DNA from: an uncultured Clostridia bacterium
GTDB taxonomy: Bacteria; Bacillota; Clostridia; Christensenellales; Borkfalkiaceae
Reading direction: 5' to 3'
Assembly: GCA_944328445.1 (NCBI GenBank)
Contig: CALVHO010000009.1
Coordinates: 1 to 64,000, forward strand
DNA: 64,000 bases
The notes beneath the pieces were generated by a model. It ran no database searches and was not told where the DNA came from. It saw only the letters and a list, made by a program, of their open reading frames with translations. Below are positions 54,519 through 57,708 of the stretch, one piece after another (the first letter of the stretch is position 1; each line of letters opens with the position of its first letter). The position numbers and the translations under genes were made by a program.

Positions 54519-54595
54519 GGGCCTTTAGCTCAGTTGGTCAGAGCGGTCGGCTCATAACCGATTGGTCCGCGGTTCGAGTCCGTGAAGGCCCACCA
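54519..54595 (+). tRNA. tRNA-Met (anticodon CAT), CCA encoded
   Basis: The acceptor GGGCCTT pairs with AAGGCCC, the D-arm is GCTC/GAGC, the anticodon loop is CTCATAA and the T-loop is TTCGAGT. The CAT anticodon could be elongator Met, initiator or (after modification) Ile; the lack of a C1-A72 mismatch argues against initiator. Confidence 0.95.
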
Positions 54596-54609
54596 CAACA
54601 TTATTTTAC

Positions 54610-54686
54610 GGCCCGGTAGTTCAGTTGGTTAGAACGCCAGCCTGTCACGCTGGAGGTCGACGGTTCGAGACCGTTCCGGGTCGCCA
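54610..54686 (+). tRNA. tRNA-Asp (anticodon GTC), CCA encoded
   Basis: Acceptor GGCCCGG pairs with CCGGGTC (one G-U). The anticodon loop is CTGTCAC and the T-loop TTCGAGA. Confidence 0.95.
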
Positions 54687-54744
54687 CCTGTTTTAGGGGA
54701 GCCTGTTTGATAGCATATGTGGGCTGTTGAGCAGGCTTTAAAAT

Positions 54745-54820
54745 GCCTCGGTAGCTCAGTCGGTAGAGCAAGGGACTGAAAATCCCTGTGTCGGTGGTTC
54801 GATTCCGCCCCGAGGCACCA
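54745..54820 (+). tRNA. tRNA-Phe (anticodon GAA), CCA encoded
   Basis: Acceptor GCCTCGG pairs with CCGAGGC. Anticodon loop CTGAAAA, T-loop TTCGATT. Confidence 0.95.
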
Positions 54821-54824
54821 TCTT

Positions 54825-54900
54825 GCTGGTGTAGCTCAACTGGCAGAGCAGCTGATTTGTAATCAGCAGGTTGTGGGTTCGATTCCAATCACCAGCTCCA
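54825..54900 (+). tRNA. tRNA-Thr (anticodon TGT), CCA encoded
   Basis: Acceptor GCTGGTG pairs with CACCAGC. Anticodon loop TTTGTAA, T-loop TTCGATT. Only 4 bp follow tRNA-Phe. Confidence 0.95.
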
Positions 54901-54934
54901 CCCGTCCGCACGGCGCAAAGCAACAACCAAATAC

Positions 54935-55019
54935 GGGAAGATTCCAGAGTGGCCAAATGGATCAGACTGTAAATCTGACGTCTCCGACTTCGGTAGTTCG
55001 AATCTACCTCTTCCCACCA
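54935..55019 (+). tRNA. tRNA-Tyr (anticodon GTA), CCA encoded
   Basis: An 85-base class II tRNA with a long variable arm. Acceptor GGGAAGA pairs with TCTTCCC; anticodon loop CTGTAAA; T-arm GGTAG/CTACC with loop TTCGAAT. Its 3' end is copied in the repeats downstream. Confidence 0.95.
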
Positions 55020-55022
55020 CGC

Positions 55023-55052
55023 AAAAGGCACTGACTTCCGTCAGTGCCTTTT
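55023..55052 (+). terminator. Terminator of the tRNA operon
   Basis: A perfect 13-bp stem (55023-55035 with 55040-55052) ends in TTTT, right after the tRNA-Tyr CCA. Confidence 0.9.
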
Positions 55053-55059
55053 GTGTTAC

Positions 55060-55217
55060 GGGAAGAGGTAGTAAACAGAAATACCGTGTTCTCGGTAGTT
55101 CGTGCGAGCATTGCGGCGCAGCGGTTACGGGTGTGTTGTTTGCGCGTCCGCAATGCGACGCTTTGCCGAGGGGTCCCCGCTTGCGGGGTTTCGGCAATAT
55201 GTAACCTCTTCCCACCA
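55060..55217 (+). repeat. Divergent first copy of the tRNA-Tyr-derived repeat
   Basis: The element begins GGGAAGAGGT and ends ACCTCTTCCC plus ACCA, so its ends pair like a tRNA acceptor stem, with the 5' GGGAAGA and the 3' TCTTCCCACCA copied from tRNA-Tyr. Inside, CGGTAGTTCG (55093-55102) matches the tRNA T-arm. About 100 bases of new, hairpin-rich sequence then separate the two halves of the T-arm. The anticodon region is lost. It shares this insert with the two 245-bp copies. Confidence 0.8.
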
Positions 55218-55462
55218 GCAAAAGGGATACCCACAAGGGTGTCCCTTTTGCTGTGTAAAGAGGTAATTGCAGAAGTGCCGCATTCACGGTAGTGACGCGA
55301 TCGCGCCTACGGCGAACGATCGCTATTCCGTCGCTTCGCTCCTTACGCGCGAGCATTGCGGCGCAGCGGTTACGGATATGTTGTTTGCGCGTCCGCAATG
55401 CGACGCTTTGCCGAGAGGTCCCCGCTTGCGGGGTTTCGGCAATATGTACCCTCTTCCCACCA
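55218..55462 (+). repeat. 245-bp tandem repeat, copy 1
   Basis: The unit holds, in order: a 16-bp terminator-like hairpin (55217-55232 with 55237-55252, one G-U); AAGAGGTA and CGGTAGT remnants of tRNA-Tyr; an inverted repeat GCGATCG/CGATCGC (55297-55303 and 55317-55323); GCATTGCGG/CCGCAATGC (55353-55361 and 55393-55401); CCCCGC/GCGGGG (55420-55433); and TACCCTCTTCCCACCA, a copy of the tRNA-Tyr 3' end. No protein coding is evident. Confidence 0.92.
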
Positions 55463-55707
55463 GCAAAAGGGATACCCACAAGGGTGTCCCTTTTGCTGTG
55501 TAAAGAGGTAATTGCAGAAGTGCCGCATTCACGGTAGTGACGCGATCGCGCCTACGGCGAACGATCGCTATTCCGTCGCTTCGCTCCTTACGCGCGAGCA
55601 TTGCGGCGCAGCGGTTACGGGTGTGTTGTTTGCGCGTCCGCAATGCGACGCTTTGCCGAGGGGTACCCGCTTGCGGGGTTTCGGCAATATGTACCCTCTT
55701 CCCACCA
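55463..55707 (+). repeat. 245-bp tandem repeat, copy 2
   Basis: It matches copy 1 at all but four positions that I could see, two near 55620 and two near 55661-55665. The near identity points to recent duplication or gene conversion. It again ends in the tRNA-Tyr-like CTCTTCCCACCA. Confidence 0.92.
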
Positions 55708-55815
55708 GCAAAAGGCGATACCCGCCTGGCATCGTCGTCAAATAACGATCAGCACAATTCATCATAATTACAAATATCAAAACAAGCAATTCTTTATTCT
55801 CTCTTTTTGTCGGGC
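55708..55815. other. Truncated third repeat start and junction with the AT-rich island
   Basis: About 15 bases (gcaaaaggcgatacccgcc-like) repeat the beginning of the unit, then similarity stops and base composition drops sharply to AT-rich. This looks like an insertion or deletion junction. No gene is seen. Confidence 0.6.
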
Positions 55816-57708
55816 TCACCTCTTGCGAATAAAGTTAAAATATTCACGCTTTAACACTTCCCTGCTATCATACGAAGAAACTTCCAGCCATTTCATATCA
55901 TCATGATCGGTAAAAGAATAATTCTCTTCCAGTTCTTCTAAACTTCTACCACTTAAATATGTACTGTCCTGGTAAAGCGTCTTTTTCCCTTTTGATCTAT
56001 TATCTGCAGCCGGCAAATAACAAATATTTCCAAACGAACTAATTGGCAGCTTTAACCGCTCAGCGTCAATTTTTGACCCATTTATAGACTCTAAAAAGCG
56101 GCGAAGAATTCCTTTTGTAGCTAAATGTTCAATATCAAACCTTTCATCATTCAAATGCTCGATCGCTCTAAAAATTTTTGAATAAATAACATTTAACAAA
56201 ATTTTGTCGCATTCATCCGGAGCTGCAACACGTTTTTCTTCGTTGCGTTCATCTAAAACTCCTTCAAACCAAATATCTAAAACTTTTTCAAACTCATCCC
56301 ATGAAACGCTTCTGCAATAGTACGTACTATTAGCAATTATGCTATTCAATTTTTTATCACCAGAACCCCGCCATTTTTTATTTAAACAATCCATAATATA
56401 AATTTTGACACAATTATTTTTAAAATCAGCTTTATTTGCACGCCAAATCTCGGAATTCCCCTTTAAGCTTATAATTCTATTGACGATTGTTTCCGTATCC
56501 TTATCTTTTTGAATTATAACATATTTCTGAACAAAAACGGACGCAATAATAGATATGATTTGCATCTCTGTATGATTTATAGAAATGTTTCCAGTGTTTT
56601 CCCGACGATTACCCTTAAATTGAGTAACAAAACTTAATTGCTTATCAACCTCGCTTACAGTTTCTAAAATTTTAACTAAAAACTCGTTTATATGTTCATC
56701 GCTGCCAAGCAATCCAATATTTATATGTAATTTGTCAACGTCCTTAACTCTATATGCCATACATGCATTTATCAGCGAAAATCCTACACTTTCAATTTTA
56801 GTTTTACTTGCACTACTTCCAAACAAATACGGATATTCACGACATAACTTTTTCCCAAAACCAAAACAAAGATCAAACAAGTTAAGTTCCTTGTTTTTCT
56901 TCATTGCGGTCGAATCGTAATCCTCAATTTCATAATTACCCTCCACCATTTCATCATATCGATCACAAACAAAATTAATTATATCAACGAGCTTTTGATT
57001 AGTAATTTTTACAGTAACATTGCTCCAAGTTGCGTTAAATATTTGATATTTTGTTAATTGTGCCCCCGTTGAATTAATTTTTTCAAAAATTTCCGGTAAA
57101 TTTTCCTGACTCCCCTGTAACTTAATTACCGGTATACTGACCTTCATTATAAAGTCACACATTGAAATATAATCATTCATCATGGGCTTGATCAATTCTG
57201 CAATTGGGAATAATTTTTCGTATGTTAACGACGGGTACTGTTTCCTAAGCTCAGCCGCAAAACCAAAAAATTGCATATGCATAACTTCTGCCATCGTTTT
57301 GTGCTCAGTCGACACCCATTTAATTAACAGGTTTTTTATTTCCTCAAAAAGACATGCTCTAATTGCCGAATTGTTACCGTTTGAAAGCTCCATTAAATCA
57401 ATAATTTGATAAAGAACTTCACTGTCTATATCTTGCTCATTAAAAAACTTGCTCGGATCACTTACAAATTTAAAAATCGTAGTGCACCGTTGCAACCCAT
57501 CAATAAGCTGCTGTTTTCCATGTGCATCTTCGTATATCAAAATAGAACCAAAGGGATATCCCTTTTTAATAGTCTCAATCAAAGCGAACTGCTTTGATTG
57601 ATCCCATATAATTCCTCTTTGATATTTTGGTATTGATATTCTATTAGAGTTTATTGCTGATTGCAAATCGGATATTTTATATTCTTCAAGTTTCCAACTG
57701 TTTTCCAT
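55816..57708 (-). CDS. DUF262/DUF1524 protein (GmrSD-like predicted nuclease)
   Basis: The 630-residue protein has the DUF262 ParB-like domain at its N-terminus: ISIPKYQRGIIWDQSKQFAL (residues 24-43) and LIDGLQRCTTIFKF (68-81). DUF262 usually reads DGQQR; here it is DGLQR. The C-terminus matches DUF1524 of the His-Me/HNH type, with FDIEHLATKG (His 528) and SSFGNICYLPAADNRSKGKK (about 557-576). GmrS-GmrD, BrxU and SspE share this pair of domains, using nucleotide-driven cutting of modified phage DNA. The gene is far more AT-rich than its neighbours (about 30-35% GC by eye), so recent transfer is likely. It has its own promoter and SD (AGAGGT) and no partner gene. A defence role is inference. 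Confidence 0.85.
   Translation of the reverse strand: MENSWKLEEYKISDLQSAINSNRISIPKYQRGIIWDQSKQFALIETIKKGYPFGSILIYEDAHGKQQLIDGLQRCTTIFKFVSDPSKFFNEQDIDSEVLYQIIDLMELSNGNNSAIRACLFEEIKNLLIKWVSTEHKTMAEVMHMQFFGFAAELRKQYPSLTYEKLFPIAELIKPMMNDYISMCDFIMKVSIPVIKLQGSQENLPEIFEKINSTGAQLTKYQIFNATWSNVTVKITNQKLVDIINFVCDRYDEMVEGNYEIEDYDSTAMKKNKELNLFDLCFGFGKKLCREYPYLFGSSASKTKIESVGFSLINACMAYRVKDVDKLHINIGLLGSDEHINEFLVKILETVSEVDKQLSFVTQFKGNRRENTGNISINHTEMQIISIIASVFVQKYVIIQKDKDTETIVNRIISLKGNSEIWRANKADFKNNCVKIYIMDCLNKKWRGSGDKKLNSIIANSTYYCRSVSWDEFEKVLDIWFEGVLDERNEEKRVAAPDECDKILLNVIYSKIFRAIEHLNDERFDIEHLATKGILRRFLESINGSKIDAERLKLPISSFGNICYLPAADNRSKGKKTLYQDSTYLSGRSLEELEENYSFTDHDDMKWLEVSSYDSREVLKREYFNFIRKR

Follow-up and report, generated by a model that had tools for sequence, protein, structure and literature searches.

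Tandem repeats of duplicated tRNA ends in Christensenellales as probable hosts of a small mobile palindrome directed to hairpin loops

What are the tandem repeats that follow a tRNA-Tyr gene in a Clostridia genome, and why are they built from pieces of that tRNA? Within the window, by which we mean the whole 64,000-nucleotide stretch of DNA analyzed here, a Met-Asp-Phe-Thr-Tyr tRNA run (54519-55019, ARAGORN) is followed by a hairpin and then by three repeat units (55060-55707). The original prediction described two 245-bp units that differ at four positions, plus a 158-bp copy, behind tRNA-Tyr, and these numbers were reproduced by Tandem Repeats Finder (55104-55723, period 245, 97% matches, score 1196), by a repeat search (copies at 55101 and 55346, identity 98%) and by alignment. 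It proposed either a chain of small non-autonomous elements with the tRNA 3′ end as attachment site or a family of tRNA-derived structured RNAs. The features of the array are as follows.

54935 to 55019, forward strand: tRNA-Tyr(GTA), final gene of the Met-Asp-Phe-Thr-Tyr run (ARAGORN, Rfam)
55021 to 55055, forward strand: terminator-like hairpin 1, AAAAGG..CCTTTT (inverted-repeat search, sequence)
55060 to 55217, forward strand: unit 1, 158 bp, without core A (sequence, folding, alignment)
55060 to 55086, reverse strand: tRNA-Tyr acceptor and T-arm copied in antisense, GGGAAGAGGTAGTAAACAGAAATACC (cognate match better than all foreign tails)
55094 to 55102, forward strand: 5′ strand of the T-stem and beginning of the T-loop, copied in sense, GGTAGTTCG, ahead of core B (sequence, alignment)
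55103 to 55200, forward strand: core B, two hairpins (GCGAGCATTGCGG..CCGCAATGCGACGC and TTGCCGA..TCGGCAA) filling the copied T-loop (interspecies compensatory changes in the first hairpin)
55205 to 55217, forward strand: copied tRNA 3′ end of unit 1, CCTCTTCCCACCA (sequence)
55218 to 55253, forward strand: terminator-like hairpin 2, GCAAAAGGGATACCC..GGGTGTCCCTTTTGCTG (inverted-repeat search)
55255 to 55462, forward strand: unit 2, the plan of unit 1 plus core A (alignment)
55293 to 55346, forward strand: core A of unit 2, TGACGCGATCG..CGATCGCTATTCCGTCGCTTCGCTCCTTAC (alignment of units 1 and 2; match to model R1, 3.8e-16)
55450 to 55462, forward strand: copied tRNA 3′ end of unit 2 (sequence)
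55463 to 55498, forward strand: terminator-like hairpin 3 (inverted-repeat search)
55500 to 55707, forward strand: unit 3, with core A and four differences from unit 2 (alignment)
55538 to 55591, forward strand: core A of unit 3 (match to model R1, 3.8e-16)
55695 to 55707, forward strand: copied tRNA 3′ end of unit 3, where the array stops (sequence)

All copied parts of the array derive from tRNA-Tyr(GTA), and the units follow one plan: an AAAAGG..CCTTTT-type hairpin, the tRNA acceptor and T-arm copied in antisense (GGGAAGAGGTAATTG..GCCG), a short turn into a sense copy of the V/T5′ strand that ends in GGTAG(TTCG), an insert in the T-loop, and then the sense T3′ strand, the acceptor strand and CCA. 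Hairpin 1 (not among the calls of an automatic terminator scan of the forward strand) joins the adjoining tRNA 3′ end and the antisense copy in a palindrome with 32-nt arms (55004-55035 and 55040-55071). As predicted, the tRNA-Tyr 3′ end closes every unit (55205-55217, 55450-55462 and 55695-55707), and the GGTAGT(TCG) remnant ahead of the insert bears out the claim that the insert lies within a copied T-arm. Behind the CCA of each unit comes an inverted-repeat hairpin. In unit 1, where core B occupies the T-loop between the antisense acceptor/T-arm copy and sense V/T5′ strand on one side and the tRNA 3′ end on the other, the ends pair as an acceptor stem would (GGGAAGAGGT with ACCTCTTCCC), again as predicted, and close a predicted multibranch fold of −76 kcal/mol (z = −5.0) with closing stem GGGAAGAGGU/ACCUCUUCCC and a free 3′ ACCA. 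Alignment of units 1 and 2 leaves one clean 51-bp gap (TGACGCGATCGCGCCTACGGCGAACGATCGCTATTCCGTCGCTTCGCTCCT, 55293-55343), which is core A; it is inserted between GGTAG and TTC (TAC) of the T-loop, at the same point in units 2 and 3.

Between the array and tRNA-Leu(caa), the reverse strand encodes a 630-aa GmrSD_N (DUF262-type) protein (55816-57708) with weak PADLOC matches to NsnA and PD-T4-2_A. The gene occupies an AT-rich island (31-35% GC versus about 60%) and looks like an acquired restriction or defence gene at a tRNA-bounded site.

The explanation that we favor, with a probability of roughly 0.6, is that the array has two layers: tRNA-tail repeats resembling the RtT repeats of Escherichia coli would serve as host, and core A would be a non-autonomous mobile palindrome inserted at a TC that lies centrally in an inverted repeat or in its loop. 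The host layer is seen in the anatomy: the T-arm/acceptor third of the tRNA itself is copied behind the tRNA terminator, first in antisense and then in sense, with the sense copy ending in CCA, and often in tandem. Duplicated tails of this kind are widespread in the same genome irrespective of core A. A cognate sense 3′-end copy, counted where it was better than every foreign tRNA tail, lies downstream of 10 of 22 last-of-run tRNAs, compared with 1 of 34 in other Bacillota, and an antisense copy is present as well at 5 of 22 versus 0 of 34. Duplication does not depend on core A, given that some tail copies lack it. In this genome, a third hairpin insert, core C (TTCGTGCTCGCGCAGCGAGCTTTGCGGCGCAGCCGCAAGCCC), occupies tail copies of tRNA-Val and tRNA-Ala on contigs C26, C13 and C41 (L009, L011, L012), and behind tRNA-Arg(ccg) on C14 (L048) an antisense tRNA 3′-end copy (17/20) precedes the short tandem repeat GTGTAACGGCTGAT.

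Core A itself is closely associated with such tails. The 157 distinct copies were gathered by exact pattern, which biases the conservation of the pattern bases; 90 of them follow a tRNA or tmRNA of the same strand at a distance of ≤700 nt. When the 20 nt adjoining CTTAC were compared with the last 20 nt of that tRNA (88 testable copies, threshold ≥16/20), the cognate tail was found in 62, was exact in 41 and stood at offset 0 in 57, and a control with foreign tRNAs gave 0 of 553. There are 19 target kinds (at least 18 tRNA kinds plus tmRNA), and homologues are found beside other tRNAs, as the original prediction implied. The copied block starts at T-loop position 57 (R57) and ends with CCA, and a cognate antisense T-arm copy lies upstream of the core in 54 of the 88 units, beating all foreign tRNAs in 42. 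As a rule, the last copy and the tRNA are followed by unrelated terminators, and within arrays terminators repeat. At tRNA-Thr(cgt), the order is tRNA directly followed by term2 in genomes without the unit and tRNA-term1-X-core-3′copy-term2 in genomes with it.

One explanation for this latter geometry would see every unit as a non-autonomous integrative element of minimal size, with the tRNA 3′ end as attachment site and a tyrosine integrase supplied in trans. The tRNA 3′ end is directly repeated on both sides of the unit, which fits this idea, as do the R57 and CCA bounds of the copied block. T-loops and anticodon loops, including those of tmRNA, are classic integrase sites, and integrase-like genes are present at the same tRNA-Thr(cgt) in five relatives (partial DNA, read by eye). 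Nevertheless, we consider this explanation quite improbable: one core is common to about 19 target kinds while term1 and the flanks are target-specific, the antisense copies are left unexplained, core A inserts inside an existing array and at non-tRNA sites without duplication, and no unit contains an integrase (at 158-245 bp the units are too short, and 55020-55740 holds no ORF >200 aa). The integrase-like reading frames stand directly behind tRNA-Thr(cgt), a core A site in relatives, in G034, G012, G005, G008 and G009 (L242, L251, L255, L256, L258), and this tRNA is also used by larger elements.

The target of core A was defined at sites away from tRNAs by searching for the uninterrupted sequence elsewhere and reading the empty/filled pairs, about nine in number, by eye. 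In these unrelated sequences (L108, two at L084, L082, L095, L176, L179 and tRNA-Ser anticodon loops), an empty X-TC-Y corresponds to a filled X-GACGC..CTTAC-Y. With a slash at the junction, the empty GGGACGTC/GAGGGCGCCGTCCC, for example, is filled as GGGACG..CTTAC/GAGGGCGCCGTCCC; further target junctions are GGAACGGTC/AAGACCGTTCC, GGGCTGTC/GAGGGCGCCAGCCC, TTGGTC/GGTATGAC, GGCATATC/ATCGACGC, GGGGAACTC/GGCACTCG, TCATTTC/GACTAAGCG and, in a tRNA-Ser anticodon loop, CGGTTTTC/AAGACCG. All pairs obey a common rule, whereby the element replaces the TC ahead of the junction in a loop or palindrome centre, and the tRNA T-loop, TTC/RA, is the same target. Core A at T-loops is always co-directional with the tRNA. 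Flank duplication was rejected as a general property of insertion, being absent at non-tRNA core A sites; since there is no target-site duplication, each core A event rests on its empty/filled comparison. Thus, the predicted chain of small non-autonomous elements survives insofar as a non-autonomous mobile element is involved, but this role falls to the 51-bp core A and not to the complete 245-bp unit. Core A targets the TC of a hairpin loop (T55-C56 in the T-loop) and does not use the tRNA 3′ end as attachment site; it also occurs away from tRNAs without any duplication. At five loci (L089, L096, L129, L143, L188), 5′ halves of tRNA-Ser(UGA) are duplicated and hold core A in their anticodon loop; it lies there on the opposite strand, as a mirror image of the T-loop case.

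These observations suggest how the two layers could fit together. The invariant T-loop TTC-RA of tRNAs and tmRNA would supply the target of core A, and because insertion into a working tRNA should be lethal, only insertions in duplicated tRNA tails would survive. Arrays may grow by unequal recombination or slippage between repeats, and our working guess for the sense-antisense-sense layout is that it would most likely arise from template switching at the terminator and V/T-arm palindromes.

The distribution of core A is broad within one order of gut bacteria. The genome studied here carries 13 copies, near tRNA-Ser, -Trp, -Val and -Tyr and at contig ends, and a pattern scan of named species genomes found at least 120 stretches, nearly all in Clostridia metagenome assemblies (MAGs), with Borkfalkia, Coproplasma, Gallimonas, Scatosoma and Limadaptatus among the genera of the matches listed. 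A few matches labelled Opitutales, Elusimicrobiaceae or Corallococcus, on short MAG contigs, may be mis-binned. With sequence model R1, core A was detected in 73 of 297 genomes and 23 of 121 genera of the order Christensenellales, all carriers being draft MAGs, and in 0 of 397 other genomes of the phylum Bacillota. Neither a pattern search of IMG/VR nor phage and plasmid records gave a match, and a phage or plasmid origin of core A was rejected on these grounds. Within the genus, most tRNA-Tyr arrays lack core A (G001, G019, five units in G016, G036, G015, G017 and the first units of G030 and G035) and a few carry it (G030 unit 2, G035 unit 3 and G034), and therefore gain is the simpler reading. 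In several cases, copies at one tRNA in related species may represent one old, vertically inherited insertion.

Neutral slippage or mis-assembly of a hairpin-rich region, involving no mobile element, could be invoked here, given that palindromes flanked by short direct repeats slip readily and that several core A copies lie at contig ends. This reading is scarcely credible, however, since one sequence recurs at dozens of unrelated loci across 23 genera, the TC rule is precise and the control gave 0 of 553. Nor was an assembly artefact, which the original prediction had allowed for, borne out, since other genomes have like arrays behind tRNA-Tyr, e.g., five units in G016 and three in G035.

We also considered whether the hairpins are maintained. 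Core A (∼35-90 bp; 51 bp in the window) consists of two hairpins of variable sequence between the fixed ends GACGC..CTCCTTAC, with hairpin 1 arms such as AAAC/GTTT, AGAT/ATCT, GGC/GCC and ACCA/TGGT. An RNAalifold consensus on a MAFFT alignment of core A was uninformative (three pairs) because hairpin lengths vary, and the stems were therefore tested element by element: hairpin 1 had a mean of 3.06 paired positions versus 0.69 in shuffles, and hairpin 2 had 2.87 versus 0.58. In helix 1 of core B, there were 10 double-change cells versus 2.5 in shuffles, with slid controls giving 0-3. Where the copied 3′ end had changed relative to the tRNA, in contrast, the antisense arm still fitted the tRNA by 8:1 (n = 11). 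The antisense arm does not track these changes; thus, the tRNA-like closing stem is not maintained, and selection for an acceptor-like closing stem was rejected. We conclude that the hairpins are maintained and the tRNA-like closure is not. In the putative tRNA-derived structured RNAs of the original prediction, compensatory changes are seen in the internal hairpins and not in the outer arms. Maintenance of the hairpins may act on DNA, through mobility or palindrome correction, or on RNA, and the compensatory changes in the core A hairpins could also mean selection on an RNA.

An alternative built on the latter possibility is that the units are functional structured RNAs, RtT-like and cut from the tRNA operon transcript, with cores A and B as RNA domains and with the tRNA-like closing stem and CCA end serving processing, stability or decoy binding. 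The fold of unit 1 (minimum free energy z = −5.0, acceptor-like stem, ACCA overhang), the compensatory changes in core B helix 1 and the core A hairpins, and the constant co-direction of T-loop copies with the tRNA are consistent with this alternative, as is the like layout in E. coli, where an RNA from the tyrT operon was reported (Bosl and Kersten 1991, as cited in PMC8144298). We regard it as possible but on the unlikely side, in light of the patchy presence of units between close relatives, the closing stem that is not maintained, units that lack the 3′ strand or have added hairpins (G001, G019), and core A copies in unrelated non-tRNA palindromes; moreover, replication-linked palindrome correction can mimic covariation. 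Under the two-layer explanation, too, transcription of the tRNA operon would probably read through into the array, whose products may be processed RNAs, as in E. coli. As a known RNA family, the array was rejected: no Rfam 15 family matched it at or above the gathering score, and the RtT model RF00391 had no match in the window at that score and none to E = 10 in 55020-55760.

Among the core A loci fetched, none contained an autonomous copy or a flanking transposase, and a search for longer copies with an internal gene or for inverted pairs found one inverted pair only (L084), without a gene. RAYT/IS200 transposases were rejected as mobiliser, since at 12 Y1_Tnp loci no transposase (RAYT) gene was flanked by core A and some carriers lack such genes (G021 has nine core A copies and no Y1 transposase match). 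The core motif lies near only 1 of the 12 loci (L201), at a tRNA-Ser tail on one side, ∼300 bp away. At that locus (G026:C2), two genes, one large-serine-recombinase-like and the other an IS200-like Y1 transposase, separate the tRNA-Ser 3′ end from two core A tail units.

How does this array compare with known systems? REP/BIME palindromes (GTAG and CGTC super-families, PMC3733652), like core A, are small, non-coding, palindromic and interspersed, without a gene of their own, and have an unpaired end motif, which in core A is GTAAGGA on the reverse strand. The core A ends on that strand, GTAAGGAGC and GCGTC(A), are neither of them a clean match to the GTAG/CGTC tags. Core A differs in that its consensus is order-specific, it ends in GTAA and not GTAG, it has a precise TC-in-hairpin target and it sits mostly inside tRNA-tail copies. 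Some Rickettsia and mitochondrial hairpin elements sit in other hairpins or in genes. Like core A, the palindromic elements of Rickettsia and the double-hairpin or repetitive hairpin-forming elements of mitochondria (e.g., PMC2800124) are mobile hairpins with no known enzyme; for core A, the target rule and the tRNA-tail setting are specific. The occurrence of the same core A sequence at unrelated sites with precise empty sites is a feature of miniature mobile palindromic elements. The tRNA gene fragments of integrative elements (PMC9897764; Islander, PMC4383910) share with our units a direct tRNA 3′-end copy from T-loop to CCA, whereas the units are 130-250 bp without an integrase and have antisense copies, tandem arrays and one insert across target kinds.

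The only similar thing found is the E. coli tyrT-type repeat, contrary to the original statement that no named element with this layout was known. In E. coli K-12 tyrT/tyrV (L275), tandem 178-bp repeats behind tRNA-Tyr (RtT RNA, Rfam RF00391, whose covariance model gives four matches of 133-138 bits there) each carry the tRNA 3′ end with CCA, in the order antisense T-arm (GGGGAAGGATGAGAAGCTTCGACC), sense AAGGTTCG, hairpins and tRNA 3′ end TAATCCTTCCCCCACCACCA (19/20). The window array has the same order, with tandem units behind tRNA-Tyr, a CCA-ended tRNA 3′ end, and an antisense then a sense T-arm copy around internal hairpins; the layout is common to both, a likeness that rests on the order of parts. 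The E. coli tyrT-tyrV spacer holds a stretch, GAGGAGCGAAGCGACGAATAA (in NC_000913.3, GGTGAGGAGCGAAGCGACGAATAATCC), that is similar to core A read on its reverse strand (AAGGAGCGAAGCGACGGAATAG), a post hoc likeness. A literature search on the tyrT repeats returned short mentions only: a role of rtT in the stringent response was called possible, and rtT was described as similar to BIME repeats (PMC2965389), which fits REP-like hairpins inside tRNA-tail copies. Unlike the E. coli case, the layout here is genome-wide (10 of 22 tRNA runs), involves about 18 tRNA kinds plus tmRNA, and has a transposable T-loop insert at many loci in Christensenellales. It might even be, although we think this unlikely, that a hairpin-targeted element of Christensenellales creates the CCA-ended tail duplications through its own insertion into T-loops. 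The tyrT repeats of E. coli, and RtT-like RNAs in general, would then be what hairpin elements with a T-loop target have left behind in distant bacteria, either as scars or in domesticated form. The E. coli tyrT repeats have hitherto been a one-locus curiosity, and genome-wide occurrence in a distant lineage, with many independent cases, makes their origin a comparative problem. To this, core A adds a miniature mobile element whose precise hairpin-loop target would be the most conserved tRNA loop, and suggests how a genome can carry such an element, namely in sacrificial tRNA-tail copies; together, tail repeats and core A would explain why, in these genomes, contigs break and spurious tRNA fragments appear at tRNA loci.
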